The notes under the pieces are model-generated. The model was not told the origin of the DNA. It did no database searches and was given only the letters and a program-made list of their open reading frames with translations. Made by a program: the position numbers and the translations under genes. Below, in pieces: positions 11,197 to 62,235 of a stretch of DNA of 64,000 nt (position 1 is its first letter; each line of letters starts with the position of its first letter). This stretch comes from a virus. The stretch is taken from positions 1 through 64,000 of the IMG/VR virus record IMGVR_UViG_3300036760_000306, one strand, 5' to 3'.

Positions 11197-12312
11197 ATGG
11201 TGGATACCCTGAGTCGCCGAGTTGCGGAGCGGTGGTTAATCGCCAAGGCTTCTCGTGGTGTGACGTTGCAGCCTGAGTACGATAAGGCGCTCAAAGCGCT
11301 TGAGGGTGGTGACTACAAGCCCATCGTGGTTTTCGGTAAGAAGGTCATCGAGATCATCACGCCCGGTGGTGGGCTTTTGCCTGCGGACTGGTTCGGGGCT
11401 CTTGGGGTTGCGAAACGCAACGCAATTTCCACCCTCCGTAAGAAAATCCTCGCTTTTGACCCCGGGAGCTTCAACCCTGGGGATTTAGAAAAGCCCGGGA
11501 TACGAGCGTACCTCGTTATGGAGGTGCAGAGCTGGGGCAAGGCGATCCGTACCCTTGAAATCGCGACCGCTGTAGGCGATACGGAACGCGAGATCAAGCA
11601 CGGCCCTTTTACGGTTATCCCCGTTCCGGGTGTCACTCAGGCACAGCAGAACGCAGCGCTCGATGCGCTAGACGCAGCGGCAGACAAGATTCGGGCGAAG
11701 TTCCCCAAGGTGCTTTACGGCAAGATATTCTTGGCCACGCACCTTTCTCGCAAAACGGTGGCTCATTACGTCGTGGATAACGACACGGTTCACTTGGATG
11801 TCAACGCCAACAAGAAAATCGGGGACATCTACACGATTTGCCACGAGTTCGGGCATCGCTTTGACTACAAGTTCCTTGACCGGGATCTGAAGAACCAGTT
11901 TTGGAAGCTCTCGACCCGCAAGATCTACGAGGTCATTGAGTTCGATTCCAAGTTGCGTGAGCAGGTAGCTGACGAGGTGGTGTCTCTCGCGAACGAGAGA
12001 GTGTTGGGTAGGCCTTTACCGAAAATGTCTTCTGAGTTGGTTGCGTGGCTCAAGAGTCCGGATGGCCCGAACGACATTAAGCGTTCTATTGGTGAGTACC
12101 TGACCGGGAAAATGGACGAGAAAGTTCTCCACGCGGAAGCCAAGGGCAAAAAAGACGCCAAGGTTATGACCGACAAAGTGTTGCACGGGCCCCTTTATGT
12201 TACGGAGTACGGCAAGACCAACCCTGGTGAGAACTTTGCTGAGGCGTTTGCCCATTACGTGTTGGGTATGAACATGGCTCCCGAACTCGTGGAGATCCTG
12301 TCACAAGCCTAA
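11197..12312 (+). CDS. Putative zinc metallopeptidase with N-terminal RVAxRYLxA tag
   Basis: 371 residues. ICHEFGHRFDY near residue 215 is an HExxH zinc site, and ENFAEAFAHY about 130 residues later could supply the third ligand, as in gluzincin-like peptidases. The N-terminus carries SRRVAERWLIAK, one copy of the nine-residue module shared by about ten proteins here. The ATG at 11197 is preferred to the TTG at 11191 because AAGGG lies just upstream. The substrate is unknown. It may be a virion-packaged protease or a host-directed enzyme. Confidence 0.65.
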   Translation: MVDTLSRRVAERWLIAKASRGVTLQPEYDKALKALEGGDYKPIVVFGKKVIEIITPGGGLLPADWFGALGVAKRNAISTLRKKILAFDPGSFNPGDLEKPGIRAYLVMEVQSWGKAIRTLEIATAVGDTEREIKHGPFTVIPVPGVTQAQQNAALDALDAAADKIRAKFPKVLYGKIFLATHLSRKTVAHYVVDNDTVHLDVNANKKIGDIYTICHEFGHRFDYKFLDRDLKNQFWKLSTRKIYEVIEFDSKLREQVADEVVSLANERVLGRPLPKMSSELVAWLKSPDGPNDIKRSIGEYLTGKMDEKVLHAEAKGKKDAKVMTDKVLHGPLYVTEYGKTNPGENFAEAFAHYVLGMNMAPELVEILSQA

Positions 12313-12350
12313 GGATTCTTTTGTCACGTCCCTAGGGAGAGGTTGATCAG

Positions 12351-12674
12351 ATGACGAATCCAGCAAAAGCATTCCAAGAAGCCCTCGATCGTCAAAAGGT
12401 TGGCTCCAAGCAACTCGACCCCCGGGTCATCGAGCGTATTCGCCACTTGACCCACGGGAACCACACCTCTGAGTCTTACGTGGCAGGCGCTGAGGCGCTT
12501 GGAGAAAAGCACTTGGCGGACAAGTTCAAGCTCATCCAGCAGCTCGTCAAGCTTGAGGGGCACCGGCCTAGTGGGCTTGGTGACTACCAGTACAATTTGT
12601 ACCGGGAAATGATGACCCAGGCGGAGCGGACGCTTGACGAGGCGGCTTTCAAAGAGTTCTACGCTTCGTTCTGA
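12351..12674 (+). CDS. Small helical protein, MTNPxKAFQxAL family
   Basis: 107 residues, helical and highly charged. Its first twelve residues (MTNPAKAFQEAL) match those of the protein at 38276 (MTNPVKAFQAAL), while the rest differ, so the N-terminus looks like a shared module. GGGAGAGG precedes the ATG at 12351. Function unknown. Confidence 0.6.
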   Translation: MTNPAKAFQEALDRQKVGSKQLDPRVIERIRHLTHGNHTSESYVAGAEALGEKHLADKFKLIQQLVKLEGHRPSGLGDYQYNLYREMMTQAERTLDEAAFKEFYASF

Positions 12675-12691
12675 GGGCGCACTTCGGAACT

Positions 12692-12700
12692 TGGTGTAGT
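12692..12700 (+). promoter_or_regulatory. Extended -10-like promoter box
   Basis: TGGTGTAGT fits TGn plus a TATAAT-like hexamer (TGTAGT). It lies exactly 8 nt before the ATG of the SNF2-type helicase gene, leaving no room for a ribosome-binding site. The same box and spacing precede the genes at 40249, 43510, 48630 and 59379 (minus). Confidence 0.6.
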
Positions 12701-12708: not shown

Positions 12709-15700
12709 ATGGCGGCCCCTAAAGAAGATGTCGTAGGCAAGCACGAGAAGGCTTACGAGTTCCTGAAGCAGGTCCGGGCGAGCAAGACCGTTACGCTCAA
12801 ACCGACCGCTATGCTGCGGTCGGAGATCGTTGGGCTGGACGGCATGACGCAGCCGCTCAAGATCAGGTACTACCAGGTGCAGGCCATCATGCACCTCTTG
12901 ACCATGAAGCGCATGGTTCTTGGGGATGCCACCGGCACGGGCAAGTGTGTCACAGGTGATACCATGATCTTGACTGATCGTGGGTATGTACCGATTCGAG
13001 ACCTGGCTCCAGACGTTGAGCTACAGGCCGACACAGCTTACGAGATAGCACCTGTTTCGGTTTGGACAGGATCCGAGATGGCTCGGGTCAAATGTTTCTA
13101 CTGGAACGGTCTTGCAAAGACCCGACGCCTGCGGACTCACTCTGGGTTCGAGATTGAGGGTAGTCTAAACCACCCCGTGTTGGTGCGTAACACAGAGGGT
13201 GAAGAGGTTTTCAAACGGTTGGCGGATGTGGCGGTGGGCGACCAGTTGTGTGTCTCCAGGTCTCTTGCCCCCTTCCCAACAGCAGAGCCTAAACTCCCCC
13301 ACAACTCGGATTTGAATGGGCCAAGAACTAAACGGTACGCCGTTCCTGAATGCTTGAGCCCGTCACTGGCAAGGCTGTTAGGTTATGTTGTGGCTGAGGC
13401 ATGGAGCAATTCCTCAGCCAATCTAATTGTGACGCAGCACCGAGAGATAAACCCAGAGGCGCACGACGACATCCGTTCGCTGTTTCTTGAGTTGTTCGGT
13501 TGGTCTGGTAATCAAGCGGCCAAAACAAGAGACATGGATGTCAATGTGTCTAGCACGCACATTAGGCGCTTCTTTCTAGATTGCGGGGTACCCGAAACAA
13601 CATCGCACTTCAAAGACATCCCCTGGTGCATCGGGTCAGCCACACGAGAGTCAACTAGGCAATTCCTTCGTGGTCTGTTTGAGGGGGAGGGTTCAGTTGA
13701 TCTTAGTGCTGGTGGGTTAGAGTTTCCGTCCTCTTCGGAACGTTTGGCAAGGGGCGTGCATCTGCTGCTTCTTCGTTTTGGTATCGTCTCTGCCCTTCGA
13801 CCGAAGTACGTCAAAAAGTACAACCATGTGTACTGGCGCGTCACTATGTTTGGGGACGCCGCTCGATTGTTCGCATCAGAAATTGGGTTTGTCTCTACTC
13901 GCAAACAAGAAGCCCTGACCAAAGTTCTGAATCGCCCTAGCAATTCTAACAAAGATGTTGTGCCGCACACCGCTCGACAGGTGCAAGCTCTTAGGGCTGC
14001 CTTGCTGGCAAATGTGACTCGACATGGATCCAATGCTGTTCGCACTGGCTCAGGGTTAAAACCCTATGGGCGATCGTTCAACAGCACCCTCTCCCATATC
14101 GGTTTGAAGTACCGTAACCCAACCTTCAGGTTCCTGCGGGTCTTACTCCAAGCCGCCAAGGACAAGGGGTTAGAGGCTATTCCAGCTTATGCTGATTTAC
14201 ACCGCGTCGTAGCTAACCACCATTTCTACGAAGCCGTCTCAGAAGTTACGGACGGGGAAGACTATGTGATGGACCTTGAGGTCGATCACCCCAAGCACTG
14301 CTTCGTCGGGAATGGTCTGATTAACCACAACACCCTCGTCCTGATCGCGTCGCTTTGCTACGCCTGGGACAAGGAGCCGACCAACAAGGGCGTGGTGGTG
14401 TGCCCCAAGTCAGCTCTCCGCCAGTGGGAGGCCGAGTTCGTGAAGTTCTCGGTGGGCATCAAGACCTTCCTGGTGGATGGCTCCCCTCAGGAACGCAAGG
14501 CGGTCTACGAGGCCTTCCAGGCCCACCCAACGACCCCTGGGAGCGAGAAGGCGGTGCTCCTGATCGGTTACGCCCCGCTGGTCCGGGATTGGAACGTTGG
14601 GTCTACCAGGCCCTTGCTACCCAGCGGGCAGCCCAACATGAAGGTGCCCCAGACTCCCGGACTGCTCTCAGGCATCATGGGGTCCATCCCGAACCTGACC
14701 GTCACGTTTGACGAGGCCACTGCCTTCAAGAACACCAAGACCAAGACGTGGCAAGTCGCCTCTGAGCTGTCTGCGTACGCGAACCGTTGTTACGGCCTGA
14801 CCGCGACCCTGTTGAAGAACAACCTGATCGAGGGTTTCGCGATCTTCAAGGTCATCTACCCGCAGGTCTTCACCACCATCACGGCGTTCCTTCGGGATTA
14901 CTGTGTGACCAAGATGCAGCCCGTGGGCGGGGGCCGGAAGATCCCCATCGTGGTGGGGTACAAGAACTTGGAAGCGTTCCGAGCCCGCATCGACATGTTC
15001 TTCCTGGGCCGGGCCAAGCACCTGATCTCGGACGAGCTGCCCAAGCTCATCACCAAAGAAGTTCAGGTTGACCTGTCGGAGGCCGAAGACGCCAAGTACA
15101 TCGAGGCTTTGACCGGGATCCTTCAGTTGGGTGACGGGCAGATCAAGGACTACGAGGAACACAAGAAGCTCGTGGCCCTGATCTACTGCCAGCAGACCGT
15201 GGATTCGCTGTCCTTGCTCAAGTACAAGGAGGGTGATGAACTTGAGCTAGGGCTTTACCACGACGAAATCGTCAAGGTAGAGGGCGTGGGGTCCAAGGAG
15301 CAGGCGTTGCTGGACCTTTTGGCTGAGGAGTTCGATGACGAGAAGGTGATCGTCTACACACGCTTTGCCTCTCTCGTGCCCCGGCTTCAAGAGTTGTGCA
15401 AGAAGGAAGGCATCGAGTCGGTGGCGGTGACGGGTCAGGTGGTGGACACCAAGGCCAACCCGGCTCGTCAGAAGGCCCAGCAGGCCTTTCAGGACCTCAC
15501 CTCGAAGGTCCGGGTCATCTTCATCACGGACGCGGGCTCGGAGGCTATCAACCTTCAGGCGGCATCGGCCATGATCTTCTACAACGCCCCGTGGAGCTGG
15601 GGCAACTACGTCCAGCTTCTGGGTCGGCCGATCAGGATCGGGTCACCGCACCAGCACGTGGTGGCGGTGCATCTTGTGGCCCAGAGGCCTAAAGCCAAGG

Positions 15701-15900
15701 GCAAAGAGCGCAAAACCATCGACCACTACACGCTGGCGATCCTCCAGAAGAAGAAGGATTTGATCGACAAGGTGCTCGGGGAGTCAGCGGTGGGGGCCCT
15801 GGACTTCGATTCCGGGGAAAGTTTCGCTCATTTGCTCATGGGCGAGCTGCAAAAGTCAGTTCGTGGCCCAAGTGGTGTAACTAAGCCCCGTGCCACCTGA
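12709..15900 (+). CDS. SNF2-type DNA helicase/ATPase interrupted by an intein
   Basis: 1063 residues, of which 462 are an intein; the spliced protein is ~601. Walker A GDATGTGK-T is completed only after splicing. Motif II is DEAT (668-671). The C-terminal RecA lobe includes FITDAGSEAINLQ and a motif VI-like LLGRPIRIGSPHQH, typical of SNF2/RapA-type translocases. Such phage enzymes remodel replication forks or recombination intermediates, as UvsW does. It starts the replication block and overlaps the next gene by 11 bases. The TGGTGTAGT box sits 8 nt upstream of the ATG, suggesting a leaderless transcript. Confidence 0.85.
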   Translation: MAAPKEDVVGKHEKAYEFLKQVRASKTVTLKPTAMLRSEIVGLDGMTQPLKIRYYQVQAIMHLLTMKRMVLGDATGTGKCVTGDTMILTDRGYVPIRDLAPDVELQADTAYEIAPVSVWTGSEMARVKCFYWNGLAKTRRLRTHSGFEIEGSLNHPVLVRNTEGEEVFKRLADVAVGDQLCVSRSLAPFPTAEPKLPHNSDLNGPRTKRYAVPECLSPSLARLLGYVVAEAWSNSSANLIVTQHREINPEAHDDIRSLFLELFGWSGNQAAKTRDMDVNVSSTHIRRFFLDCGVPETTSHFKDIPWCIGSATRESTRQFLRGLFEGEGSVDLSAGGLEFPSSSERLARGVHLLLLRFGIVSALRPKYVKKYNHVYWRVTMFGDAARLFASEIGFVSTRKQEALTKVLNRPSNSNKDVVPHTARQVQALRAALLANVTRHGSNAVRTGSGLKPYGRSFNSTLSHIGLKYRNPTFRFLRVLLQAAKDKGLEAIPAYADLHRVVANHHFYEAVSEVTDGEDYVMDLEVDHPKHCFVGNGLINHNTLVLIASLCYAWDKEPTNKGVVVCPKSALRQWEAEFVKFSVGIKTFLVDGSPQERKAVYEAFQAHPTTPGSEKAVLLIGYAPLVRDWNVGSTRPLLPSGQPNMKVPQTPGLLSGIMGSIPNLTVTFDEATAFKNTKTKTWQVASELSAYANRCYGLTATLLKNNLIEGFAIFKVIYPQVFTTITAFLRDYCVTKMQPVGGGRKIPIVVGYKNLEAFRARIDMFFLGRAKHLISDELPKLITKEVQVDLSEAEDAKYIEALTGILQLGDGQIKDYEEHKKLVALIYCQQTVDSLSLLKYKEGDELELGLYHDEIVKVEGVGSKEQALLDLLAEEFDDEKVIVYTRFASLVPRLQELCKKEGIESVAVTGQVVDTKANPARQKAQQAFQDLTSKVRVIFITDAGSEAINLQAASAMIFYNAPWSWGNYVQLLGRPIRIGSPHQHVVAVHLVAQRPKAKGKERKTIDHYTLAILQKKKDLIDKVLGESAVGALDFDSGESFAHLLMGELQKSVRGPSGVTKPRAT
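12946..14331 (+). other. Intein in SNF2-type helicase (462 aa)
   Basis: Starts with Cys (CVTGDTMIL, block A), has GSLNHPVLV as block B and ends with YVMDLEVDHPKHC...LINHN (blocks F/G, HN). The +1 extein residue is Thr. It interrupts Walker A between GTGK and T. Two LAGLIDADG-type helices are visible (LARLLGYVVAEAWS and FLRGLFEGEGSV), so it probably encodes a homing endonuclease. The first motif lacks the usual acidic residue at the expected place (VVAEAWS), so activity is uncertain. Confidence 0.9.
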
Positions 15901-16780
15901 GGTCAACAGCGCAAACTGCCCGCTCTGCAAAGGGGCCCAATGGTTGTACGAGACAAACGGCGAGGAAGTGATTCCAGTCCGTTGTCGGTGCCTGGAGCGA
16001 AAGCTTCTGCACGACTTCCTGGGCCCGGAAATCTACCGAGCCCCTTGGGTCCCGTCGTCCCTGTACAACATCACGACCAACGAAGCTGGCGAGGTCGAGG
16101 GGGACCGGACAGAGGAGAATCTGTTTCTCAAGGGTTCGTGGGCCGTGGTTTGCCAGCACCTGCACTGGGCGCTTTCGGCCAAGCGTCTCTACAGCCCCAG
16201 GTTCAACTTCAAGATCGTGGGCAACGACAAGCTCCTGACCGTGTGGTTGGGTCTTGAGTCCTATACCCAGCGGTCAACCGCAACTCGCAACGAGATCGAG
16301 ACCAACAACAGTTTGGACGATCTTATCGGTAACGCCCCTCTCGTAATCATCCGCCTTGATGGTCTTGAGCACCATAACAAAGCGGCGGCCAACGTCTTGA
16401 AAGAGGCGCTCAAGGTCCGAGAGTTTGGTTACAAGCCCACGTGGATTGCCGAGTGCGGCCGTCGTTTTGGACCAGGGCATCCGTCCTACAATGAAGCGGT
16501 AGGGGACTACATTGCAGAATGCTTTGACATCGTGAATCTCAGCGATGAGGACCCTCAGACCAAAGCGCAGCAAGCGGCCCTCGATGCAGCGGCCCAAGAC
16601 ATTATGGAGTCCGGGGAAGTCTCGATGGGGGCCGATGTGGAAACCCCGCGTATTGTGGTCCCAGCCTCCAAGGAGCGGTTCTTTGCAGATCCCGAACCAG
16701 AGTCAGATCCTGACACTAAGCGGTATGTACCAGGTGGTAGGGGTAAACGTAACAAGGGCAAAGGCCAAGCGGAGCTTTAA
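15890..16780 (+). CDS. Zinc-finger protein, possible degenerate helicase loader
   Basis: 296 residues. The N-terminus has CPLCKG...VRCRCLE, a four-Cys zinc site like that at the start of many phage DnaC/IstB-type loaders. The middle has a Walker B-like strand (PLVIIRLDGLEHH), but no GxxxxGK[ST] loop is present. The tail is acidic, then basic. It sits directly before the DnaB-type helicase gene (overlap of one base), the usual place for a loader. I infer a loader or adaptor that has lost, or never had, ATP binding. GTG start overlapping the previous stop. Confidence 0.5.
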   Translation: MPPEVNSANCPLCKGAQWLYETNGEEVIPVRCRCLERKLLHDFLGPEIYRAPWVPSSLYNITTNEAGEVEGDRTEENLFLKGSWAVVCQHLHWALSAKRLYSPRFNFKIVGNDKLLTVWLGLESYTQRSTATRNEIETNNSLDDLIGNAPLVIIRLDGLEHHNKAAANVLKEALKVREFGYKPTWIAECGRRFGPGHPSYNEAVGDYIAECFDIVNLSDEDPQTKAQQAALDAAAQDIMESGEVSMGADVETPRIVVPASKERFFADPEPESDPDTKRYVPGGRGKRNKGKGQAEL

Positions 16781-34393: not shown

Positions 34394-34903
34394 ATGACGA
34401 CTCTGGCTCAACGTGTTGTTGATCGTTACTTGACGGCTAACGCCCCAGGAGAATACTACCCTAAGTATTGGATTGAGGATTTCGTGCATGAGAAGACTGT
34501 GCGTCGATTGACGTTACCCAACACAAATTGGGGCATCGCAATTGCACATAGCGAACGTTTGCAGGTTATCTGGGCGGACATCGTAGTTCGTTTCAAGCTC
34601 AAACAGAAGTTGACTCGGGAGCACCCGGACAACAAAGAAGATTGGAACGCCGCTGAGGGTGCCCTAGAGGCGTTCTTCAAAAGCGACACTGAAACTGCGG
34701 GTGTCATCTGCCAGGAGCTGTTCGACAAGGAACTACCCTATGCTCTTGGTGAGCGCATTGGCGCAATTATTCGTAGGGGACTCACGCGCAAAGAAGTCTC
34801 TACTCTAGCGAGCCTTCTCAGTGGATCTCGTACAAAGGATATCCTAGAGGGTATGGCTAAGTTATTACTAGGGGCTGCGGTATCACACTTATTTGGGCGC
34901 TGA
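34394..34903 (+). CDS. Hypothetical protein with N-terminal RVAxRYLxA tag
   Basis: 169 residues. TLAQRVVDRYLTAN at 3-16 is a clear copy of the shared module. The rest is a helical domain without known motif (a NWGIAIAHSERLQVIWADIVVRF segment and a C-terminal GSRTKDILEGMAKLL helix). The ATG is two bases after the nitrilase stop. If the tag is a head-targeting signal, this would be an internal virion protein. Confidence 0.6.
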   Translation: MTTLAQRVVDRYLTANAPGEYYPKYWIEDFVHEKTVRRLTLPNTNWGIAIAHSERLQVIWADIVVRFKLKQKLTREHPDNKEDWNAAEGALEAFFKSDTETAGVICQELFDKELPYALGERIGAIIRRGLTRKEVSTLASLLSGSRTKDILEGMAKLLLGAAVSHLFGR

Positions 34904-37540: not shown

Positions 37541-38227
37541 ATGGATGCTATTTCGTTGATTGCGTTGCGTATCGCCGCTCGGTTCCAGAAGATTGCGTAC
37601 CAAGAAGGCAAGTTCTTGGGGCGGGATTGCCGCCTGACTTGGAGCAGGCACGGTTGGACCCTCGAAGAGCTGCCGATCAAGGGCAAGAAGAAGCTCAAGG
37701 TAGCGTCGTTGCAGAACCCCGTTACCATGGGTTGGGCTAACTTCGATGCCTACATTGACGCGAACATTCTGCAAGATGCCAGACTGAGTGCTTCGGATTC
37801 GTACGATAGCATCAAGCAGAAGATGCTTGATGCCTACGAGTTGGCGGCAGAGGTGTCCATCAACAAGATGACTCCCGATCAGGCCAAGAAGACGCTTTGG
37901 CTTCGTGAACTTAAGTGGTACGAGGATGAGGTTCACTACCTCAAGATCACCCCCGAGAACACGGAACCGTTCGAGGCCGAAGGTAAAGATTACACGATCA
38001 AGGTCACGTGGACCAAGTTTTCGACCTACTCCCCGGACTCTGACTTCCAGCAATCGGATCCGCACTACACGCAGTACGCAGAGTCCTCGGCCCAAGGGGC
38101 ACGTAGGCTGTACCAGATCTTGAAGGCTGACCCGAATGCTCTCAAGAGCGTCCCTTGGAAGAACCTGGGCGACTGGCTCACCAAGAACAAGGTCTCGTAC
38201 AAGATTCATTTCTCACAGTGGGGCTGA
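37541..38227 (+). CDS. Hypothetical protein with N-terminal tag-like segment
   Basis: 228 residues. ALRIAARFQKIA at ~9-20 is a divergent copy of the shared module. The rest is alpha/beta with many aromatic and charged residues; no catalytic motif seen. Its last ~12 codons are part of a tandem duplication continuing into the next gene's leader. Confidence 0.55.
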   Translation: MDAISLIALRIAARFQKIAYQEGKFLGRDCRLTWSRHGWTLEELPIKGKKKLKVASLQNPVTMGWANFDAYIDANILQDARLSASDSYDSIKQKMLDAYELAAEVSINKMTPDQAKKTLWLRELKWYEDEVHYLKITPENTEPFEAEGKDYTIKVTWTKFSTYSPDSDFQQSDPHYTQYAESSAQGARRLYQILKADPNALKSVPWKNLGDWLTKNKVSYKIHFSQWG

Positions 38228-38768: not shown

Positions 38769-40187
38769 ATGACAATCGAAACAACCGCCGAACTAGTCCT
38801 ATCCCGCTTTGAGGAAGGCAAACCAGCCGATCCAACGGAGAACATGAGTCCTGAGGACGCCAAGACGTGGCGTGAGCAGACGGATGAGCACAAGGACGAG
38901 TTCAAGGCTGCGGCCAAGAAGCCTTCGCGCCCTTCGGTTGAGGAAACGCCGGAGGAGAAGCGCTTCACCCGTGAGCGTGAGCAGGTAGAGGAAGCGCTCT
39001 CAGCTCTGCGTGAAGGGATTGCGGACCGCTTCCCTATTCCGGAAGATCGTAGGCACCCTCCAGAAGCGCGTGAGGTGCTCAACCATTACCTTCTTGCAGA
39101 CCGTCTGCAACACAAAGCCTTCATGCAGTCCGTGGGCGGCAATTCAGACGAGCCGTCGGTCCAACGGGAAATGTTTAGCCTCTTGGCTAAAGCGGAGGCG
39201 GAGATCAAAAAGGCTAAGCGCTTGCTGGCCGAGGTGCCGTCCGAGAAGAAGGCTGCTGCGTCTTCCGTGGTGACCCGTTTCCTGACGGCGGATCAGGACA
39301 AAGCGGCCCCTGAGCAGGTGGACAAGTATTTCGAGCAGGTCAAGAAGGACAACCCGTCTTACGATGACTCGCAGGCCTACGCGACAGCGTGGTCCATCTA
39401 CTGCAAGCACAAGAACCCGGGTTCAGATTCGTGTCACCAGGACGAGTACCTGACGGGCAAGACGGCAGGGGACCGCTATTTGGAGGCAGCCTGGAAGGCC
39501 CCCGCGATCAATCAAGCACTCGCCAAGCTGATTGCCAAGAAGGTGGATCGCCATTTCGTCTCGGACCTCTTGAACGAGAAGCTTTCAGGGCGTAGCTGGG
39601 AAACCAAGCTGAAAGAGGCTATTGGAAAGGCTGTGGCCCCCACGCAAATGCGTGATCAGGTTGAAGCCCAGCCTGCGATCAAGAAGTGGTTGGCGGATCT
39701 CTCGGACTCGGAGCTTTCAAAGATCCGGGACCTGGTTGAGGAGACGCTCAACCACGGTAAGGCTGAACAGTATAAGTCCAAACCGGAGGCTTGGAAAACG
39801 GCCGACGCCAAAACGGCAGGGTTCGGCTACGGTGTTGCCACGTTGACCGTGTTGTTCGTTGAGGGCCGTAAGCCCGTCCCGTTCAACATCGACACCATCC
39901 AAGACATCAACCACATCACGATCCCGATCATCGGGGACGATGGTGAGGAACACGACGTCCAACTCAAGGTCGTGAGGCACCAGTCGTCTGGGCCGCTGAC
40001 CCAACCGCAAGAGAAGTTGGGCTGGAAGCGTGAAGTCCTGGTGGAGATACAACACCCGGTGGATGAGGGTGGCTCGCCTCAGACCTCAGCCCGTGCGGCA
40101 CTCACGGCCTTGGCTCAGGTGGGCAAGCAGCACGGCTTCAGGGTTGAGCCGGTGCAGCGTGGCTACAAGCCCGAGACTCGCAAATAG
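38769..40187 (+). CDS. Multidomain protein with three RVAxRYLxA-type segments
   Basis: 472 residues. AELVLSRFEEG (7-17), SSVVTRFLTAD (165-175) and TAGDRYLEAAW (232-242) resemble the shared module and split the protein into three parts of ~155, ~60 and ~230 residues. Between the second and third copies lies a domain common in phage proteins (VDKYFEQVKKDNP...YATAWSIYCKHKNPG...CHQDEYL). The C-terminal third is predicted beta-rich. The arrangement suggests a polyprotein cut near each copy. Confidence 0.6.
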   Translation: MTIETTAELVLSRFEEGKPADPTENMSPEDAKTWREQTDEHKDEFKAAAKKPSRPSVEETPEEKRFTREREQVEEALSALREGIADRFPIPEDRRHPPEAREVLNHYLLADRLQHKAFMQSVGGNSDEPSVQREMFSLLAKAEAEIKKAKRLLAEVPSEKKAAASSVVTRFLTADQDKAAPEQVDKYFEQVKKDNPSYDDSQAYATAWSIYCKHKNPGSDSCHQDEYLTGKTAGDRYLEAAWKAPAINQALAKLIAKKVDRHFVSDLLNEKLSGRSWETKLKEAIGKAVAPTQMRDQVEAQPAIKKWLADLSDSELSKIRDLVEETLNHGKAEQYKSKPEAWKTADAKTAGFGYGVATLTVLFVEGRKPVPFNIDTIQDINHITIPIIGDDGEEHDVQLKVVRHQSSGPLTQPQEKLGWKREVLVEIQHPVDEGGSPQTSARAALTALAQVGKQHGFRVEPVQRGYKPETRK

Positions 40188-46648: not shown

Positions 46649-46945
46649 CCTACGATCCGCTGACTCATCCGTTTCGAGATTCTGTTTCCGCCTGGACCTT
46701 TGAACAGAAGCCTTTGAGCCCTGGGGTTAGCTCGCCCCGATCGAGCATGTGATCGGTCTCAATGCGCTCCTCCGAAGTACGACCTTCGTCCCTGCAAGGG
46801 TAGCATCGCCCTGTGCCCAGATGGTGATCAAGGGTCGCATGCGTGCATAGGCAGGTTTGCTGAAGGGTTGCTACACCACTTAGGGCCGACGGTACGTGGG
46901 CGGGTTCTCTCGCATGAAGCGGTCTACGATCCGCTGACTCATCCG
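46649..46945. repeat. 22-bp direct repeat CTACGATCCGCTGACTCATCCG
   Basis: The block starting CTACGATCCGCTGACTCATC occurs at 46650-46671 and 46924-46945. On the minus strand it encodes MSQRIV, the beginning of a tag-like segment. It flanks the Cys/His fragment and may mark a recombination or deletion event. Confidence 0.7.
46665..46865 (-). pseudogene. Fragment of a small Cys/His protein
   Basis: The minus frame reads CLCTHATLDHHLGTGRCYPC, a C-x-C-x-H...C-x2-C zinc pattern typical of tiny phage proteins, then a helical tail to a stop at 46665. No in-frame start codon is found close to the motif, and the plausible beginning lies inside the neighbouring minus gene. I take it as a 5'-truncated remnant. 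Confidence 0.35.
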
Positions 46946-47167
46946 GTCCGCGATGGTAGTCTCGATGTGCCGCTCTCGGGCCTTCTCGCTCGTGAAGGCC
47001 AGGTGCCACAAGGGTTTGTCACCCTTCTTGGCGAACACGATGGCGTACGGTCGGCCCCCAGCCTCGTACTCCCACACCAGCAGGTCGGAGCCTGGGGGCG
47101 TATAGGGCTTCATGCCTCGGGTCTTGGGCGGCAGGTAACTCCGGTCGTAGCTGTGCCTTGTGCTCAC
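46880..47167 (-). CDS. Small protein ending in a tag-like segment
   Basis: ~95 residues from GTG 47167 (alternative ATG 47113, 77 residues). Core VWEYEAGGRPYAIVFAKKGDKPLWHLAF is a compact beta domain I do not recognise. The C-terminus has MSQRIVDRFMREN, like the shared RVAxRYLxA module. The lone minus gene in a plus block, next to remnants on both sides. Confidence 0.45.
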   Translation of the reverse strand: MSTRHSYDRSYLPPKTRGMKPYTPPGSDLLVWEYEAGGRPYAIVFAKKGDKPLWHLAFTSEKARERHIETTIADRMSQRIVDRFMRENPPTYRRP

Positions 47168-49761: not shown

Positions 49762-50238
49762 ATGAAGCAGGATTCCCAGCCCGCTGATCCAGCAGCTTCA
49801 CCCCCTGTCGTGCCGTTCTTGCCGTTGTTTTCCTACGGTACGCTGCGCCACCCCGAGGTTCAACTGCACCTGTTCGGCCGGACTGTGAAGTCGGAAGATG
49901 CCGTACTTCACGGTTATCGGGTGGTTGCGGGACCCGATGGCTACTTCTTCATTGAACAGGACGAGACCACAGAGACTGCCGGAGAACTTCTGTTCTTGAC
50001 TCAGGAGCAGGTCTATCGCGCCGATCAATGGGAGGAAGTTCCTCTCTATGTGCGAAGCAGGGTCACGGTCCAGCTCAGCAACGGGGACTCCGTGAGCGCC
50101 TGGGCCTACTTTCGGCCAGAGATGACCGGTATGCTGCAACAGCGTGTGGCTCACCGCTTCCTGATCGCCTCGTTCAAGCCGGGCGACTACATCTTGTTCG
50201 GGAAATTCCGGAACAAGCGGGCTCGCGTGATCATATGA
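49762..50238 (+). CDS. Gamma-glutamylcyclotransferase-like protein with C-terminal tag
   Basis: 158 residues. LFSYGTLRHPEVQ is the YGTL phosphate-loop-like motif of the GGCT/AIG2 fold. YRADQWEEVPLYVRSRV supplies the D-x-x-E segment with the catalytic Glu. The family makes 5-oxoproline from gamma-glutamyl amines. After the fold comes QQRVAHRFLIAS (127-137), a strong copy of the shared module, here C-terminal. It overlaps the next large gene by 4 bases. Confidence 0.7.
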   Translation: MKQDSQPADPAASPPVVPFLPLFSYGTLRHPEVQLHLFGRTVKSEDAVLHGYRVVAGPDGYFFIEQDETTETAGELLFLTQEQVYRADQWEEVPLYVRSRVTVQLSNGDSVSAWAYFRPEMTGMLQQRVAHRFLIASFKPGDYILFGKFRNKRARVII

Positions 50239-52754
50239 CCCCCGAGGCCATTCTGGAGTCACAGCAGTTGGAAGCGGCGGAACGGGCTCTCGTTCAGAGG
50301 GTGGCCCAGCGCTACTTTGAAGGCTCTCGGACACTAGTGGGCGGTCGTCTAGCTCTTCCCATTAAAATGGCTAATGGTATCAATAACTGGGCCAAGGCAG
50401 TCTTTGGGGCCTGGGTTGTAGCGCACACTAAAAAAAGCCTTCTGACCGCTACAATGCCAAAAAGGCAAGCTGAACTTCAGAAGGTGCTCAACGCTGCCAA
50501 ACAAGATGCTAAAGGGCGGGCACCAGTCCCTCCCGATCAGGTGACCAAGACGTTTCGAGTGGCCCTCGATGATTTGCCGTCCGGGTATCCGGTAGACCGC
50601 ATGACGAAGATGCTGAGTGCGCTCCCAGTGACCCTGGACTTCACTGGGAAGCCCTACCCGCACGAGGGTGCTTACACGGCGGGTTACTTCGATGTTGAGT
50701 CTCGCGACCTTGTCTTACACCTTCATGGTACTCTGAACCCACCCTCTGATGTTACGGATTATCAATTCCGTCTAGGGGAGATGCAGACCGTTCTAGAGCA
50801 TGAACTACGGCATATGGTGCAAACCTTGCTTGGTGACGCCTTGGGGAAATCTATACTCAAGGATGACTGGGAAGTGGGCTCCCCTCACAGGTCGGACCCA
50901 GACCATGAGTTACTAAAGAAACACCCTGAGGATCAGTATTTCTTGGAGCCTTGGGAATTCCATACTTGGGTTGGACAGGCAAAAGATCTGTTTCTTAATC
51001 AAGTTAGCTTTCGTCCCGAGTACCTGAAAAAGCTCTATAGTGACGAGGAGGTGGTGCTGGAACCGACACGAAAAGAGTTCAATCTTTTCGTTGGTGATCC
51101 AAAGCCGACTCCAGCGGGAGTCCAGAATCAAGGGGTTTACACCTCTCCGTTTTTTGCGGCCTTGTGGCGGCACGATCGTAAACGTTGGCAAAGAGCGGTT
51201 GCCGAGTTATGGCAACAACTTTCATCGGAGCGGGCTCTCGTCCACAAGGTGGCTCAGCGCTACCTCGAAGCGACTGTCCCTCGGTACGTGTACCATTGGA
51301 CGAAAGCGAAGGCTCTACCCAGTATTTTAAGCAGGGGGCTTCTCCCCATGCCCTCCCCTGCCGCAGAAGGACGGGTTGTTTGGTTGTCAGCCAACCCTGA
51401 CAAATGGCGGGAGTTCGTGGAGAAGCAACACGAGGCACCTGGGAACGAAGCGGTACTACTACGCATCCCTGCAAGTGCAATTCCTGACTTGCAGGGATTG
51501 AAGCAGTCTCCGAACACCTTTGTCACAAACCGACGCATACCGCCAAGTGCTATTGAGGTCGTAACACCCAAGGAAGCGGCGACCGCAGCAAGGTTTAGGC
51601 GTCTGGCCCGTGAGGTACGGATCGTCATCGATCGTGATGCCACGCTTGTAGTCCGGGCCAAGCACCACGACACCTCGATAGTTGGAACCTTTGAATCAAC
51701 GGTCTCTCTGTACCGGATCTTTGACGGTGAAGAATTGGTGCGGTTGGCTCGATCAGGACGTTTCACCGGAGGCACCTACTCGGTTGGTTCAGAACGCGCC
51801 CACGGTGCTAGTTGGGGCGAGAACATCTCCGAGATAATCGGGTGGGGCAACCGTCAACGCGGTCACCGGCTTGGCGACGACTTGTTCTTGGCCAAGATCG
51901 ACGCTTCGGGCCGACGCTTTTACCACATGACCCCGGAGGTCGAGTTTCAACCTGAAGGTGAGTCCCTACAACCCGCCACCATGGATGTATCGAAGTGCAG
52001 CACCGGCCTTGGATGCAGTGTGGTCGATGTCCTGTTCAATGACGCGACGTTCTACCGCGTAGATCCGGGTGGGCAGATTGAACCGCTGTCCGATCAAGAA
52101 CTCCACAGCTACATGAAAGCACGGCCCCAGAAGGATGTGGATCTTCGAGCGGTCAGTCGCGTCATGCACTCCGGCACCATCTACGGGGTTGATGTTAATG
52201 TGGTGCTCGACCAAGAAGCACCCGATCACGAGCTACAGCCGCCATCCCCCTACTACCGCACTTGGTATGTAGAAGTGACGAGGGTGCCCGCCGAAGAGAC
52301 GGTGATCCTGAAGGGTGCCAAGACCCTAGAGCTTGCGGTCCATAAGGCTAAGAATCTCTTGAAGGGTACCACCGCTGATGATTGGCAGGGTGCTCGCCCT
52401 GTGTCCTTACTACCCAAGGCAGCCATGGATGTATGGCGCAAGCGTGAGCAGATCTGGCAGCAACGAGCCCGTTTGCAAAGAACGGCATCTGGGGGAGTAT
52501 CGACGGCAACCAACAGCTTCAATACTAAGCCAGGTAAACGGGTGACCCTGAGTGCCTATCACTCCCTCGCGGGTGACTTTGAAGGTGTAGCGGAATCCGC
52601 TGTGCCTTATGTGTACGCCCCCAAGAAGTTCAAAGAACTGGCTCCCACCATCTATGCAGCGGTGGCGAAATGGTTCAAGGGGGCACACGTCCGATATGCT
52701 GGGGATTCCTTTGCTAGCAATCCCATAGGGGAAGTCGAGGCGGCGCTGTGGTGA
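50235..52754 (+). CDS. Multidomain protein: metallopeptidase plus two ADP-ribosyltransferase-like domains
   Basis: 839 residues. LVQRVAQRYFEGS (20-31) and VHKVAQRYLEAT (337-347) are two copies of the shared module. The first part has LEHELRHMVQ, an HExxH zinc site (H189, E190, H193). Directly after the second copy, RYVYHWTKAKALPSIL...RVVWLSANP (~350-400) looks like an ADP-ribosyltransferase/KptA-type fold. A further part from ~490 (SLYRIFDGEELVRLA...GGTYSVG...ASWGE) is also ART-like. The ~240-residue end is unrecognised. The layout recalls T4 Alt, a head-packaged, processed and injected ADP-ribosyltransferase. ART assignments rest on patterns only. Confidence 0.55.
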   Translation: MTPEAILESQQLEAAERALVQRVAQRYFEGSRTLVGGRLALPIKMANGINNWAKAVFGAWVVAHTKKSLLTATMPKRQAELQKVLNAAKQDAKGRAPVPPDQVTKTFRVALDDLPSGYPVDRMTKMLSALPVTLDFTGKPYPHEGAYTAGYFDVESRDLVLHLHGTLNPPSDVTDYQFRLGEMQTVLEHELRHMVQTLLGDALGKSILKDDWEVGSPHRSDPDHELLKKHPEDQYFLEPWEFHTWVGQAKDLFLNQVSFRPEYLKKLYSDEEVVLEPTRKEFNLFVGDPKPTPAGVQNQGVYTSPFFAALWRHDRKRWQRAVAELWQQLSSERALVHKVAQRYLEATVPRYVYHWTKAKALPSILSRGLLPMPSPAAEGRVVWLSANPDKWREFVEKQHEAPGNEAVLLRIPASAIPDLQGLKQSPNTFVTNRRIPPSAIEVVTPKEAATAARFRRLAREVRIVIDRDATLVVRAKHHDTSIVGTFESTVSLYRIFDGEELVRLARSGRFTGGTYSVGSERAHGASWGENISEIIGWGNRQRGHRLGDDLFLAKIDASGRRFYHMTPEVEFQPEGESLQPATMDVSKCSTGLGCSVVDVLFNDATFYRVDPGGQIEPLSDQELHSYMKARPQKDVDLRAVSRVMHSGTIYGVDVNVVLDQEAPDHELQPPSPYYRTWYVEVTRVPAEETVILKGAKTLELAVHKAKNLLKGTTADDWQGARPVSLLPKAAMDVWRKREQIWQQRARLQRTASGGVSTATNSFNTKPGKRVTLSAYHSLAGDFEGVAESAVPYVYAPKKFKELAPTIYAAVAKWFKGAHVRYAGDSFASNPIGEVEAALW

Positions 52755-55700
52755 TCCAAGCACGAGTAGCAGAGCGCTTCGTTAGGGTGTCGGCGTACTC
52801 CGAAGACACCCTAGAGGTTGTTGCGGCCGGTCTTGCTCTACTGATCGCACAGAACTACATCGTCACCAATCCCTTCTTCGATGAGAAGGAGATCCGAACC
52901 TACCTGCTGTTGCGCAAGCAGTTCCACGGGGACTTCGTTCAAGCGTGCCTGGACCTGGCGAATGCCTTTGAAGAGGGCCAGTTCGGGCAGAGCGTGCAAC
53001 CGGCTGTCCCAGCTCTACGGGCTATTGGGCATCTTGGGGTCAAGCAGGATCAGCAAGCGATCCGACAACTCGCGAGAGCATTCCGAGGACTCAAGCACCT
53101 CAAGTACAAGGATGTCGAGAACCCGAAGCTCATGCGGCTCATCCTGATGGCCCGCAGACTTGATGTCACCGCCCCGATCGACGCATGGTCGTCCGGTGGC
53201 AGGGATATCAAGGATTTCCTGGAGAACCTGGTCAAGATCCCAGCAGTGCCCACGAGGCTCCGAACACTTCTTCGTAAAGTCATTAAGATGCCTGTGCCCG
53301 GCAGTACACTCACCGAGAACGCCAATCCGGGTGCTTGGTTTGAGATGCCTGCTGAGGAGAAGCAGAATCTTCGGGAGTTGACTGAGAAAGTTGAACAAGA
53401 GCAGCTTGACATCTGGGAGAAGCACAAAGACTCGGATGCCAATGAGCGCATGGCCGCTTACCAGAGTGCGGCTCGACGGCTCCAGAAGATTCAGAGCATC
53501 GCGGGTGTGAACGTTGGGATCATCAAACGCGAGGATAAGGTCCCGCTCGATGCCTTGCTGAAGAAAGAGTCGGGGCTCGAAACCGATGGGCCTACCGAGT
53601 ACACGCGACTCAAGCTTGAGGACTATATCAAGAAGATGGGTACCTACGGTGCCCAACGGAAAGAAGGCGACCCCCTTCCTCGTGAGATCAGCAAGCTGCT
53701 GACCAGCCTTCGTAAGGCTAAGACGTTCCCAACGATGCAGCGCGTGATCAAAGACGCGGTGGATCGTCAAGTGCTGGGCCGTGGGGCTGTCGAGGACGTG
53801 GACCAAATCCTCAAGCAGGCGAACAAGAACCGGGCGTTGAAAGAGGGCAAGCCCCTTACGCCACTTCAGTTCAGCCCACAAACATTGGAGCAGTTCAAGG
53901 CAGCGCACGACACGGGACCTGTGGAGTTCGACCCTGACTTCACGGAAGACGAGAAGCAGCAGTTGCTGGGCCGGGTTTCACGGGCCATCAGTGACTTGGA
54001 GGGTGTCTACGGGGAGGGCTTCTGCGGTAAGCATGCCAAGAAACTCGCGTTCCGTTTCAACAAAGGGTACAGCGGGATGGCATCCGCTCACTACTTCACG
54101 TGGGACGATCGCAAAACGTGGCAACCCAGGGTGACGTTCGGTCCGGAGTACGAAGGACTCTTGGCTCACGAGCTGTCGCACTACCTTGAGGACTTGCTGG
54201 CGTACCAGATCCAGAAGCAGACTGAACCTGAGCGTATCGAGGCCCTCAAGATCAAAGGGATCGAGGGCGGCCCGGGTGTTCTGTTTTCCAACACAGGCGT
54301 ACCCTTGAGTCGCTTCGCTGAGGCGGGTTCCCTGGCGAGCTATCGGGACCACCTGGGCAAGACGATCCCAGAGTTCGTTGATTTCATCGACGCTGTACTG
54401 GCCACACCGGACTACAAGCGCTGGGAGGACAAGCTTGGATCGGCTTACGACTCAGCGCTGCCCAAGGCGATCAAGGCGCTGACCGGCATGAACTATTACG
54501 ACCTGCCCAAAGATCACCCGTATTACAGTCTGATCGACAAAGCACGGTACCGCTCTGATCTACCGCCGGAAGTAAACGCCGAGGCACAGAAGCAGTACAA
54601 GGCTATGATGGGCGGCGACGATCGCAAGCTCAGTTACTACAACAGCTCCACCGAGGTTTGGGCCCGGATGTGCGAGCAGTACGTATACAACCGGCTTATC
54701 GACGCGGGGATCTCAAATCCGTGGCTCACTCAGATGAACTACGAGGATGATGTTTTCATGGACGAGAAGACCTTCGATACCAAGCTACGTCCTATCATGG
54801 ACAAGATCTTTGCCAAGCTGAAAGGCCGTAAGCTTATTGCAGGAGTTCCGATGAGCCCCCTACGTGAACGACTAGCGGACCGCTTCCTACTCGTGGCCCG
54901 AGTGGCGGCCCGCTACAAAGAGGCAAAGTACAAGAGCAAAAAAGTAGTGCCCAAAGCCAGCGGCAAAGGCACTACTGAGGTGTTGGTCTACTCGGATCGG
55001 CAGATAGCCCTACGTAAAAGCAAGAAAAGCAAGCGCCTTCAGAAGCTCAGTGGGCACATCGACAAGATGATGGCCAAGGTCAAGAAGGACTTGACCTCTA
55101 GTGATCAGAAGACTGCACGTGTTGCGCTCGCCATAATGTTGATTAATGAAACGTACGAGCGCGTTGGAAATGATACGAGTGCTGCGGGCGAGAACTCAGA
55201 CACGGATTCCACCCCGCACCTTGGGGTGACCGGGTGGTCAAAAAAGAACATCAAGTTCACGGGCGGTAAAGCCAAGATCTCCTACCGTGGCAAGAGTTCT
55301 GTAGACCATGTGAAAATCGTGGAAGACCCGGCGACGGTCAAGGCACTCAAAAAAGCCTATGACGAATGTGAAGGGGACAAGGACTGCATCTTCCACTGGG
55401 CAGATGGGAAAGTCACGGCCAAAGAAGTCAACGAGGAGTTACGATCCTTTGGGGATTTGACTGCCAAGGATTTGAGGGGGTGGCACGCCAACAGGCTCAT
55501 GAAAGAAGAGCTGGCTAAGGTACGAAAAGGCAAGCTACCCGAGGATAAGAAGGAGCGGGAGAAAAAGCTCAAGGATGAGTGGAAGAAAGCCTTGGAGGTC
55601 ACGGCGGAGGAAATCCAGCACGAACCTGGCACCCTTCAGGGACAATACCTGGTAGACTCAATGCGTGAACAATACCTGAAGGACGGTACCATAATCGAAC

Positions 55701-55933
55701 GTTTGGATAAGACCGCCATGCTTGACAACTGCGTAATTGACAGCCCCGCATCGGTCTTTGACCAAGTTGGGATCAAGCGGGGTGACCATTACACGATCAC
55801 CTGTGATGGTTGCGGAGCTGTGACTCGTTGTCGTTGTGATGGACCTAGAATTGAGGCTCACGTTCCTTCGTGTCCCGAGTGTGCCCCGAGTGCTCTTTCT
55901 GTCCGCTATCAAGTCTCAGAAGGTGCTGGGTAG
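52748..55933 (+). CDS. Metallopeptidase fused to DNA topoisomerase IB, zinc-ribbon tail
   Basis: 1061 residues (GTG 52748 or 52751). N-terminal ARVAERFVRVS is the shared tag. Residues ~1-450 are helical. LLAHELSHYLED (H474, E475, H478) is a zinc protease site. ERLADRFLLVARVAARYKEAK (~708-727) holds two tag copies. After it comes a topoisomerase IB with the full catalytic set: R805 (ERVGND), K849 (YRGKS), R910 (AKDLRGW), H958 (IQHEPG) and Y967 (GQYLVD). The H-to-Y spacing of 9 equals H265/Y274 of vaccinia enzyme. A Cys-rich tail (CDGCG...CRC...CPEC) ends it. ATG 54851 with AGGAG upstream could start the topoisomerase alone. Confidence 0.8.
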   Translation: MVIQARVAERFVRVSAYSEDTLEVVAAGLALLIAQNYIVTNPFFDEKEIRTYLLLRKQFHGDFVQACLDLANAFEEGQFGQSVQPAVPALRAIGHLGVKQDQQAIRQLARAFRGLKHLKYKDVENPKLMRLILMARRLDVTAPIDAWSSGGRDIKDFLENLVKIPAVPTRLRTLLRKVIKMPVPGSTLTENANPGAWFEMPAEEKQNLRELTEKVEQEQLDIWEKHKDSDANERMAAYQSAARRLQKIQSIAGVNVGIIKREDKVPLDALLKKESGLETDGPTEYTRLKLEDYIKKMGTYGAQRKEGDPLPREISKLLTSLRKAKTFPTMQRVIKDAVDRQVLGRGAVEDVDQILKQANKNRALKEGKPLTPLQFSPQTLEQFKAAHDTGPVEFDPDFTEDEKQQLLGRVSRAISDLEGVYGEGFCGKHAKKLAFRFNKGYSGMASAHYFTWDDRKTWQPRVTFGPEYEGLLAHELSHYLEDLLAYQIQKQTEPERIEALKIKGIEGGPGVLFSNTGVPLSRFAEAGSLASYRDHLGKTIPEFVDFIDAVLATPDYKRWEDKLGSAYDSALPKAIKALTGMNYYDLPKDHPYYSLIDKARYRSDLPPEVNAEAQKQYKAMMGGDDRKLSYYNSSTEVWARMCEQYVYNRLIDAGISNPWLTQMNYEDDVFMDEKTFDTKLRPIMDKIFAKLKGRKLIAGVPMSPLRERLADRFLLVARVAARYKEAKYKSKKVVPKASGKGTTEVLVYSDRQIALRKSKKSKRLQKLSGHIDKMMAKVKKDLTSSDQKTARVALAIMLINETYERVGNDTSAAGENSDTDSTPHLGVTGWSKKNIKFTGGKAKISYRGKSSVDHVKIVEDPATVKALKKAYDECEGDKDCIFHWADGKVTAKEVNEELRSFGDLTAKDLRGWHANRLMKEELAKVRKGKLPEDKKEREKKLKDEWKKALEVTAEEIQHEPGTLQGQYLVDSMREQYLKDGTIIERLDKTAMLDNCVIDSPASVFDQVGIKRGDHYTITCDGCGAVTRCRCDGPRIEAHVPSCPECAPSALSVRYQVSEGAG
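54841..54853 (+). promoter_or_regulatory. Possible internal translation start for topoisomerase IB
   Basis: AGGAG at 54841-54845 lies 5 nt before the in-frame ATG 54851. Starting there gives a ~360-residue protein that begins with the tag and contains the whole topoisomerase domain plus zinc tail. Confidence 0.45.
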
Positions 55934-55956: not shown

Positions 55957-56136
55957 GTGAACCGGGGAATGGCGTCCAAAGTCCTGACTCGTTACCTCAC
56001 GGCCAGGGATGACCAAGGGGTGCATCGTTGGTCCGAAGAGGACCGGCGAAAAGCCAGTGAAGTTGAAAAAGAACTCAAACAGCTAAAGCAGACTATCGGT
56101 AAGCTTGCATCCGACCTTTTGCGGCTAGACCGCTAG
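55957..56136 (+). CDS. Small tag-bearing coiled-coil protein
   Basis: ~59 residues from GTG 55957 (TTG 55954 and ATG 55969 are alternatives; AAGGAG at 55941 favours the first two). SKVLTRYLTARD is a clear copy of the shared module; the rest is a short coiled coil (VEKELKQLKQTIGKL). Essentially a tag plus a helix, which makes it a minimal example of the module's carrier. Confidence 0.55.
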   Translation: MNRGMASKVLTRYLTARDDQGVHRWSEEDRRKASEVEKELKQLKQTIGKLASDLLRLDR

Positions 56137-60992: not shown

Positions 60993-61048
60993 ACCAGGGC
61001 TTTTGACAAGAACAAAAACCCCGGATCCCCTAATCGTCCCCGCTAGGC

Positions 61049-61399
61049 ATGGACAAGGATCTGGACCGCTGGAATCGCAAACAAGCGGCATACCGTCGTA
61101 GAAAAGCCCTACAAGAGCGGGCCATCAATCATTTGGGCGGTAAGTGCCAGATTTGCGGTTACGCCAAGTGCCTGGCAGCCTTGGACATGCACCACACCGA
61201 TCCTATGGGTAAGGACTTCAACATCTCAGCGGGCTTGACCTCGTGGGAACGTGTTCTACCTGAGCTGGAGAAATGCGTGCTTTTGTGCTCAAACTGCCAT
61301 CGGGAAGTCCATGATGGGCTTCACCCCGGGTATCTCGAACTCGATGGTGTTTGGGGTTCTAGGTACGACACCGAACTGGAAACCGAGGACCTTCATTAG
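61049..61399 (+). CDS. HNH endonuclease
   Basis: 116 residues. CQICGYAKC, LDMHHTDP and LLCSNCHREVH are the zinc knuckles and HNH catalytic core, intact. The N-terminus is basic and helical. It is transcribed opposite to its surroundings, between the fibre gene and minus-strand genes, and the acireductone dioxygenase gene begins on the next base. Probably a free-standing homing endonuclease. Confidence 0.85.
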   Translation: MDKDLDRWNRKQAAYRRRKALQERAINHLGGKCQICGYAKCLAALDMHHTDPMGKDFNISAGLTSWERVLPELEKCVLLCSNCHREVHDGLHPGYLELDGVWGSRYDTELETEDLH

Positions 61400-61834
61400 A
61401 TGCTTGCCTATTGGTTGAATGCTCAAGAGTGCCTGGATCTCCCGCTTGCTGAACTGCGGCGGAACGGGATTGTGTACGAGTCGATTCCTGTTCAGGACCC
61501 TTGGCCACATTTGAATCGAATCAAAGCGGAGCATGGGTATGTGGCTGAAGACCTGGTGGACTTGAACGCGACTCGACCGGACTTCGAGAACCTAGGCCGA
61601 GCGTTCAAGCGTGAACACTCTCACGAAGAAGATGAGGTCCGCTTCATCGTCTCAGGGAATGGCACTTTCGACATCCGGTCAAACGACGACTGCTGGATGC
61701 GAGTTTGGGTTGAGCCTGGGGACCTGATCATCATCCCGGCTGGCCGTCACCACCTGTTTCATTTGACCAGCGAAGGCATCGAGGCCATCCGGCTGTTCAA
61801 GAACGAGGCGGGTTGGGTGCCTAGCTATCGTTAG
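61400..61834 (+). CDS. Acireductone dioxygenase-family cupin
   Basis: 144 residues, a little shorter than bacterial enzymes (~180). EHSHEEDEVRFIVSG gives H73, H75 and E79, and PAGRHHLFHL gives H117; spacing equals H96/H98/E102/H140 of the Klebsiella enzyme, so the metal site is complete. The C-terminal RLF...GWVPSYR is also a family signature. The enzyme converts acireductone to the keto-acid precursor of methionine (Fe form) in the salvage of methylthioadenosine, the by-product of spermidine synthesis. It follows the HNH gene without a gap and converges on the next minus gene. Confidence 0.85.
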   Translation: MLAYWLNAQECLDLPLAELRRNGIVYESIPVQDPWPHLNRIKAEHGYVAEDLVDLNATRPDFENLGRAFKREHSHEEDEVRFIVSGNGTFDIRSNDDCWMRVWVEPGDLIIIPAGRHHLFHLTSEGIEAIRLFKNEAGWVPSYR

Positions 61835-62235
61835 CGACCCCAGCTAAGCCTAGCTGAGTACGACATCGTTACCACTATGTCGTAAGCTTCCGATGGATCT
61901 TGAGTTGAACCCATGAAAGAAGCGGTAACGGTAACGTACCAACCGCCTTTTGAGAACGGAATTTCAAAGGTCCATTGTTTGCCGCTGGTCAGGCTGGGCG
62001 AATTTCTGTTGCTATAGTATTCTGCCCGGTAGTTCTGGATGGGGATCCCAGCAGCAGAGAGTCTGTCGAAGATCGCTGTAATCGGCTTCCAGTCGCTATC
62101 TCTGTGGACCCCGCTTGTCCCCGTCTGGGTAAGCTTCCTCAAGTAGGTTTCTGCCCGAGCCCTGGTCAAGCCTTCTAGGCCCTGATCTTGAGCTTGCAGG
62201 TAACGGAGGGCTACTTTTTGAGTGGTAGGGTCCAT
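61831..62235 (-). CDS. Hypothetical protein with N-terminal RVAxRYLxA tag
   Basis: 134 residues from ATG 62235. TQKVALRYLQAQD (5-17) is the shared module. The rest is a helical part followed by beta strands (WYVTVTASFMG, YDIVVTMSY) of unknown fold. A copy on the opposite strand to most other tag carriers. Confidence 0.6.
   Translation of the reverse strand: MDPTTQKVALRYLQAQDQGLEGLTRARAETYLRKLTQTGTSGVHRDSDWKPITAIFDRLSAAGIPIQNYRAEYYSNRNSPSLTSGKQWTFEIPFSKGGWYVTVTASFMGSTQDPSEAYDIVVTMSYSARLSWGR

Follow-up and report, generated by a model that had tools for sequence, protein, structure and literature searches.

An analysis of a 64,000-nucleotide stretch of viral DNA (the window; positions 1 to 64,000 of the IMG/VR record IMGVR_UViG_3300036760_000306) revealed that a nine-residue tag, RVAxRYLxA with variants, recurs at 15 sites in the encoded proteins. 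The recurrence of the tag in this huge phage and in its relatives was confirmed. With a probability of about 0.6, we favor the reading that the tag is a core- or capsid-targeting sequence that loads anti-host enzymes into the head in uncultured huge tailed phages, because the repertoire of the tagged proteins, the head-operon context, the modularity, and the recurrence of the tag all point in this direction.

Recurrence of the tag above chance

The record containing the window (G000, 116,457 b) yielded 141 gene calls over its whole length, made from a hexamer score and a start signal; these calls are crude and not a curated annotation. A tag profile was built from the 15 window copies and then scored on phages outside its training set: G001 (IMGVR_UViG_3300022744_000022, 208 kb), with 76% identity to G000 in the topoisomerase protein, and two far more distant huge phages, W01 (LR745208.1, 485 kb) and G002 (IMGVR_UViG_3300035182_002586, 529 kb). 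The records of G000 and G001 are fragments without head genes. Further tag-bearing contigs were G003 (417 kb), G004 (249 kb), G005 (363 kb), and G006 (393 kb), and the G+C content of the tag-bearing phages spanned 47-64%.

The regular expression of the preliminary description matched the G000 gene calls four times, compared with a mean of 0.007 in shuffled proteins, and the pattern V[AV]xR[YFW]xxA matched them six times, compared with 0.14. At a profile score of at least 16, the held-out phages gave 12 real matches versus 0.05 in shuffled proteins for G001, 7 versus 0.25 for W01, and 7 versus 0.4 for G002. Such a scan, proposed in the preliminary description together with a shuffled-proteome comparison, placed the motif far above chance in four phages, and comparable counts did not arise in the shuffled proteomes. 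The tag lay within the first 16 residues in 11 of the 23 W01 and G002 carriers with a score of at least 14 (p = 2e-7). Another strong copy was present beyond the window (RVAYRYREA, residue 6 of 96481-97011(-) of the record). When the whole collection was scanned for ATG with RVAxR[YF][LF]xA at three spacings, 24 places were found, several of them on contigs of 249-529 kb, and 16 of the 24 started open reading frames (ORFs) of at least 150 aa, compared with none of the 6 places found with a permuted control pattern of equal content that was run at one spacing. In unbiased gapped k-mer counts, RVxxRY patterns ranked among the highest for G000, though not uniquely, and they did not do so for the other phages. 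The cultured jumbo phage Tunturi_5 (309 kb), whose portal and protease are homologous to those of tag-bearing phages, showed no excess in its proteome (no profile match of at least 14, with 0.7 expected); at the same threshold, a 50 kb piece of CcrColossus had no match and a 50 kb piece of phiKZ had a single one. Terms for virion mass spectrometry and SDS-PAGE were not found in the paper on Tunturi_5. Loose variants do arise in shuffled proteins (about 7 at a score of at least 8 for G000) and several of the listed copies are weak, which would suit an easily formed amphipathic pattern that recurs by chance. However, this explanation retains hardly any probability, and it was ruled out by the counts in the held-out G001 and W01 and by the ORF starts relative to the permuted pattern.

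All 15 sites of the preliminary description translate into the peptides written there:

11218..11244 (+): RVAERWLIA, residue 8 of the zincin metallopeptidase gene 11197-12312 (HEFGH)
34412..34438 (+): RVVDRYLTA, residue 7 of 34394-34903 (169 aa, no family)
37568..37594 (+): RIAARFQKI, residue 10 of 37541-38227
38793..38819 (+): LVLSRFEEG, tag-like but ambiguous, residue 9 of 38769-40187
39264..39290 (+): SVVTRFLTA, internal in 38769-40187; kept in G001
39462..39488 (+): TAGDRYLEA, internal in 38769-40187; not in the G001 ortholog
46907..46933 (-): RIVDRFMRE, near the C-terminus of 46880-47077(-); G001 has RIVDRFLRE
50143..50169 (+): RVAHRFLIA, within a short reading frame that stops at 50238
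50298..50324 (+): RVAQRYFEG, close to the N-terminus in the likely gene 50235-52754 and ahead of a HELRH (zincin) region
51246..51272 (+): KVAQRYLEA, internal in 50235-52754, before an ADP-ribosyltransferase-like region
52763..52789 (+): RVAERFVRV, residue 6 of 52748-55933
54869..54895 (+): RLADRFLLV, at the junction of LPD1 and topoisomerase IB in 52748-55933
54899..54925 (+): RVAARYKEA, second tandem copy, which runs into the N-terminal edge of the topoisomerase IB domain in 52748-55933
55978..56004 (+): KVLTRYLTA, residue 8 of the small ORF 55957-56136
62191..62217 (-): KVALRYLQA, near the N-terminus of the ORF 61831-62244(-), ATG at about 62235; this ORF was not retained by the gene caller

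The peptides of this list were right, and three of its sites need qualification. The copy at 38793 is ambiguous because it overlaps another repeated module, the separate conserved RFEExKPADPTxNM. The copy at 50143 is frame-shifted relative to that at 50298 owing to 100 bp that are deleted with respect to G001, and its counterpart in G001 and in G003 starts an intact protein. The copy at 54899 blends into an edge of topoisomerase IB that is itself conserved.

Anatomy of the tag

The consensus of 37 largely non-redundant copies was LAx[RK]VAxR[YF]LxA, with information only in the nine columns and in two flanking ones, L at -2 and A/S at -1, and no conservation in the remainder. The core columns are partly circular because these copies were chosen with the profile, whereas the sharp drop of information outside them is not circular. 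The hydrophobic positions followed helix spacing (moment 0.42, compared with 0.25 in random segments), and two AlphaFold2 models show the tag as a helix of low confidence that lies apart from the well-predicted domain. On these predictions, the tag is most likely a short amphipathic helix.

The position of the tag was not strictly N-terminal, and C-terminal and internal copies were found in all four phages. Extreme C-terminal copies, each followed directly by the stop codon, were HVVSRYLHArqq and KVAERFREAlkr in G001 and RVLKRYLGAvrgg in G002_300057. Both ends of one protein were tagged in G002_9784 and G002_335722, and other copies lay between domains, in agreement with the earlier placement at N-termini, C-termini, and domain junctions. 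Tandem copies about 10 residues apart were present in three phages (W01_64700, W01_462951, G002_299120, and window 54869-54925). No conserved cleavage-like residue was found around the tag; [AS]xE was present near tags at 23%, compared with a background of 12%, and LxxE at 3%, compared with 11%. KTA[AST], considered as a junction or cleavage motif, was in modest excess in G002 only and was rejected.

Modularity of the tag

Comparison of the related genomes showed modular behavior of the tag at the sequence level, with the cargo swapped around it and the tag kept in orthologs. The orthologs of 11197-12312 in W01 and G002 (48-49% identity) kept the tag behind different N-termini, and the tag at 37568 corresponded to RVAARFGRI in G001 and to RVAAKFLQG in the 47%-identical G002 ortholog. 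The DNA match to G001 at 50298 stopped 7 bp past the tag; past this point the cargo of G000 and G001 differed, with HExxH in both. The tag DNA of 50298 recurs with 84% identity at 51226-51275. The copy at 39462 was an exact indel of seven tag residues relative to the G001 ortholog.

Other repeated segments adjoined tags. The module PxxVDxYxxxxKxxxPSYxxxQAxATAWSIYCKxxNPGSDSCHxDEYL recurred directly ahead of tags in different proteins (window 38769-40187; G002 52308-53165(-); LR745208.1 near 463 kb). A tag followed by the repeated segment FPSxxALxxYLKxHPxADKxxHxV was found in four phages (record 96481-97011(-), G001 160377-161456(-), G002 373731-374846(-), and L081).

Carrier proteins

Among W01 and G002 carriers of at least 150 aa with a score of at least 16, HExxH (zincin) was found in 6 of 12, compared with 14 of 650 other proteins (Fisher, 2.8e-7). 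For all four phages, the figures were 12 of 24 and 17 of 840, which are inflated because orthologs were counted separately. The earlier statement that the carriers share no fold was wrong for many of them, which have this zincin site. Pfam matches of zincin carriers to metallopeptidase models (e.g. ATLF) were below the cut-off and were discarded as reflecting the HExxH site only. A Foldseek search with a zincin model gave no significant match (best E 0.13), and many of the top matches were metallopeptidases.

The gene 52748-55933 encodes a polyvalent-type protein with HELSH, LPD1, and topoisomerase IB. Other domains named in carriers were ART-PolyVal, HAD_SAK_1, a Zeta-toxin-like kinase, GNAT, and a weak Peptidase_Mx1; the ADP-ribosyltransferase likeness after the copy at 51246 was judged by eye and had no Pfam match. 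The combination of polyvalent-protein domains (LPD1, ART-PolyVal), zincins, and a multidomain build was found for some carriers only. Iyer et al. inferred that polyvalent proteins are packaged and injected (PMC5512222). Judged by domain content, the carrier repertoire would be that of injected polyvalent proteins.

Link to the head operon

The head operon of W01 encodes the major capsid protein, the maturation protease, the portal, and TerL. Homologous portal and protease were found in six tag-bearing phages (W01, G002, G003, G004, G005, and G006), in each of which a long charged protein adjoins the portal (in G002, the protease). The segment RLVxPSPKxKPPRxDLRR is common to these charged proteins of the six phages, and the tag is present in 4 of the 6. 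Together, the six core-like proteins gave 5 tag matches of at least 13, compared with 0.06 in shuffled sequences. Topoisomerase IB precedes the common segment as a fusion in W01 and G004, where a tag follows (KVATTYLEA and RVASRYLLA), and elsewhere the topoisomerase is a separate tagged protein (window, G001, G002_9784, and L108). Since the topoisomerase is fused in some genomes and tagged in others, one destination is suggested.

A second tag, LRSKLIRLAHENPALRPHLLPLL, was found in about ten W01 proteins, mostly at the N-terminus (LRSKLIRLAHENPALRPHLLPLLKEA; genes at 14562, 20283, 226101, 274678, 351543, 351838, 390001, 398171, 431502, and 433279). The search for it covered the full proteomes of G000, G001, and G002 and the head regions alone of the other phages. 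Outside W01, profile scores above 12 were confined to head-operon proteins (0.05 expected), with matches at the core-like protein C-termini of G005 and G002 and in two G006 proteins.

The W01 protease is of the phrog_18299 type, and no PF03420 match (S77 prohead protease) was found in G000, G001, or W01. A Terminase_6N family search was negative or uninformative, and scanning the G001 structural module against PHROGs gave weak matches only, mostly to tail. A helical segment, LDxIAxxxQENHExxGxxxxxA, is common to proteins between the portal and the protease and is possibly a scaffold element (W01 401416-402081(-) and 403540-404118(-); G003 core protein C-terminus).

Interpretation and alternative explanations

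The preliminary description had proposed a head-targeting and processing tag on injected proteins. Head targeting was the best reading given the carrier content, the tagged portal-adjacent protein, and the topoisomerase IB that is either fused or tagged, whereas processing was not supported because no conserved cleavage-like residue was present and [AS]xE and LxxE were not clearly enriched. In the mechanism that we infer, the internal core of the prohead would recognize the amphipathic tag helix during head assembly, and the long charged tag-carrying protein encoded beside the portal and the prohead protease would be the best candidate for the docking partner. Any domain attached to the tag could in this way be brought into the prohead and packaged together with the DNA, and it would enter the host when the DNA is ejected. 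Cargo domains could be shuffled around the tag because it would work at either end of a protein or between domains. The prohead protease might remove the tag, although there is no indication of this. More tentatively, and with somewhat less than an even chance in our estimate, at least two short helices (LAxRVAxR[YF]LxA and, in W01, LRSKLIRLAHxNPxLRxxLLPLL) may form an address code of portable, repeatable head-loading tags, each resembling a segment of the head core, by which effector domains or trains of domains separated by tags would be packed and delivered. Several points weigh against head targeting: the core-like proteins of G005 and G006 had no tag match of at least 13, the portal-adjacent protein is called core-like from its position and composition only, the genes of many carriers lie far from the head operon, and the zincin association could stem from any shared destination and not just the head.

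The main rival, which we consider unlikely, is that a hub outside the virion (the phage ClpX, another chaperone, or an intracellular compartment) uses the helix as a docking or degron motif, so that the effectors would be gathered or turned over in the cell instead of being packaged. Docking motifs are typically short helices at either terminus, the ClpX gene of the window (35195-37516) lies between two carriers, and zf-ClpX matches were found in 5 of the 8 tag-bearing records. ClpX was thus not found in every tag-bearing phage; W01 has the tag and yet no ClpX zinc-finger match, although the host ClpX could substitute. No chimallin match was found in G000, G001, G002, or W01 (G000 and G001 being fragments), which speaks against a compartment of this kind, and a phage-nucleus sorting signal was rejected on the same result. 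A non-virion hub also leaves the tag in the portal-adjacent protein and the topoisomerase IB fusions unexplained. With a still lower probability, the motif could be a processing site at which the prohead protease or the zincins free domains from polyproteins. Copies do lie at domain junctions and at both ends, many carriers are zincins, and zincin processing of polyvalent proteins was proposed by Iyer et al. (PMC5512222). However, nine conserved positions with a strict R and an aromatic residue resemble a binding helix instead of a short cleavage motif, cutting tags at extreme termini would free nothing, and the [AS]xE and LxxE frequencies given above do not clearly favor it. Slightly less probable again is a spreading recombination or linker element, in which DNA homology would promote domain shuffling and the peptide would matter little. 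The near-identical DNA copies at 50298 and 51226-51275, with homology that stops at the tag, are of this kind, but most copies are alike in peptide and little in DNA across phages of differing G+C content, orthologs that are 48% identical retain the peptide, and the tag is not present in the related Tunturi_5.

Comparison with known systems also bears on head targeting. The capsid-targeting sequence (CTS) of T4, present on internal proteins and Alt, is about ten residues long; it docks diverse proteins onto the prohead core, with which they are packaged and later injected (PMC9026906, PMC3012670). Like the tag, it is a short sequence common to otherwise different proteins, but it is N-terminal and cleaved by gp21 after L/I-x-E, whereas the tag is also C-terminal and interdomain, differs in sequence, and has no visible cleavage motif, and an S77 protease was not found. 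Because two tested features, the strict N-terminal position and the S77 protease, fail, the tag set lies outside the T4 CTS family; we judge that the tag would work like the T4 CTS by analogy. The head propeptides of the phiKZ/SPN3US type are presumed to direct internal proteins to the head (PMC5694885, PMC10052503), but they are mostly 111-254 residues long, are cut after Glu, and lack a recurring nine-residue helix. Tag carriers resemble the polyvalent proteins of Iyer et al. (2017) in their zincins, LPD1, ART-PolyVal, and multidomain architecture; a shared short tag is not described in the cited part of that paper. The encapsulation peptides of bacterial microcompartments are short helices, connected to their cargo by a disordered linker, through which a protein shell is filled with diverse enzymes (PMC12339742); they resemble the tag in principle only, since the shells are unrelated. 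DarA and Hdf of phage P1 are internal proteins required for packaging further injected proteins (PMC12810830), a role resembling that of the proposed core hub, although the proteins differ. The open-access literature, searched for comparable tags of jumbo or huge phages, yielded only the T4 CTS and SPN3US propeptide papers, which is not proof of absence. We know of no shared tag on the P1 Dar proteins. If head targeting is correct, a nine-residue sequence would be enough to pick out predicted injected effectors in the sequences of uncultured huge phages, a task that is otherwise very difficult. It would predict anti-host and anti-defence sets of metallopeptidases, ADP-ribosyltransferases, acetyltransferases, and topoisomerase IB delivered with the genome, would extend the single N-terminal cleaved peptide of T4 to a position-independent modular loading tag, and might be useful for packing foreign proteins into large heads.

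Neighboring genes and other repeated segments

A DnaJ-domain protein (PF00226, 3.7e-8) is encoded at 10061-11194 of the window, directly upstream of the tagged zincin gene. Among the window genes 35195-37516, 12709-15900, and 16780-21072, intein or homing-endonuclease insertions were found in the ClpX and SNF2-helicase genes, and G001 is without them; the 1430-aa protein exceeds its ortholog in G001 by about 500 aa. The genes 12351-12674 and 38276-38734 of the window have a common N-terminus, MTNPxKAFQxAL, and a recurrent protein start, YTYRRAA, was found at 48091 in the window and also in G001.
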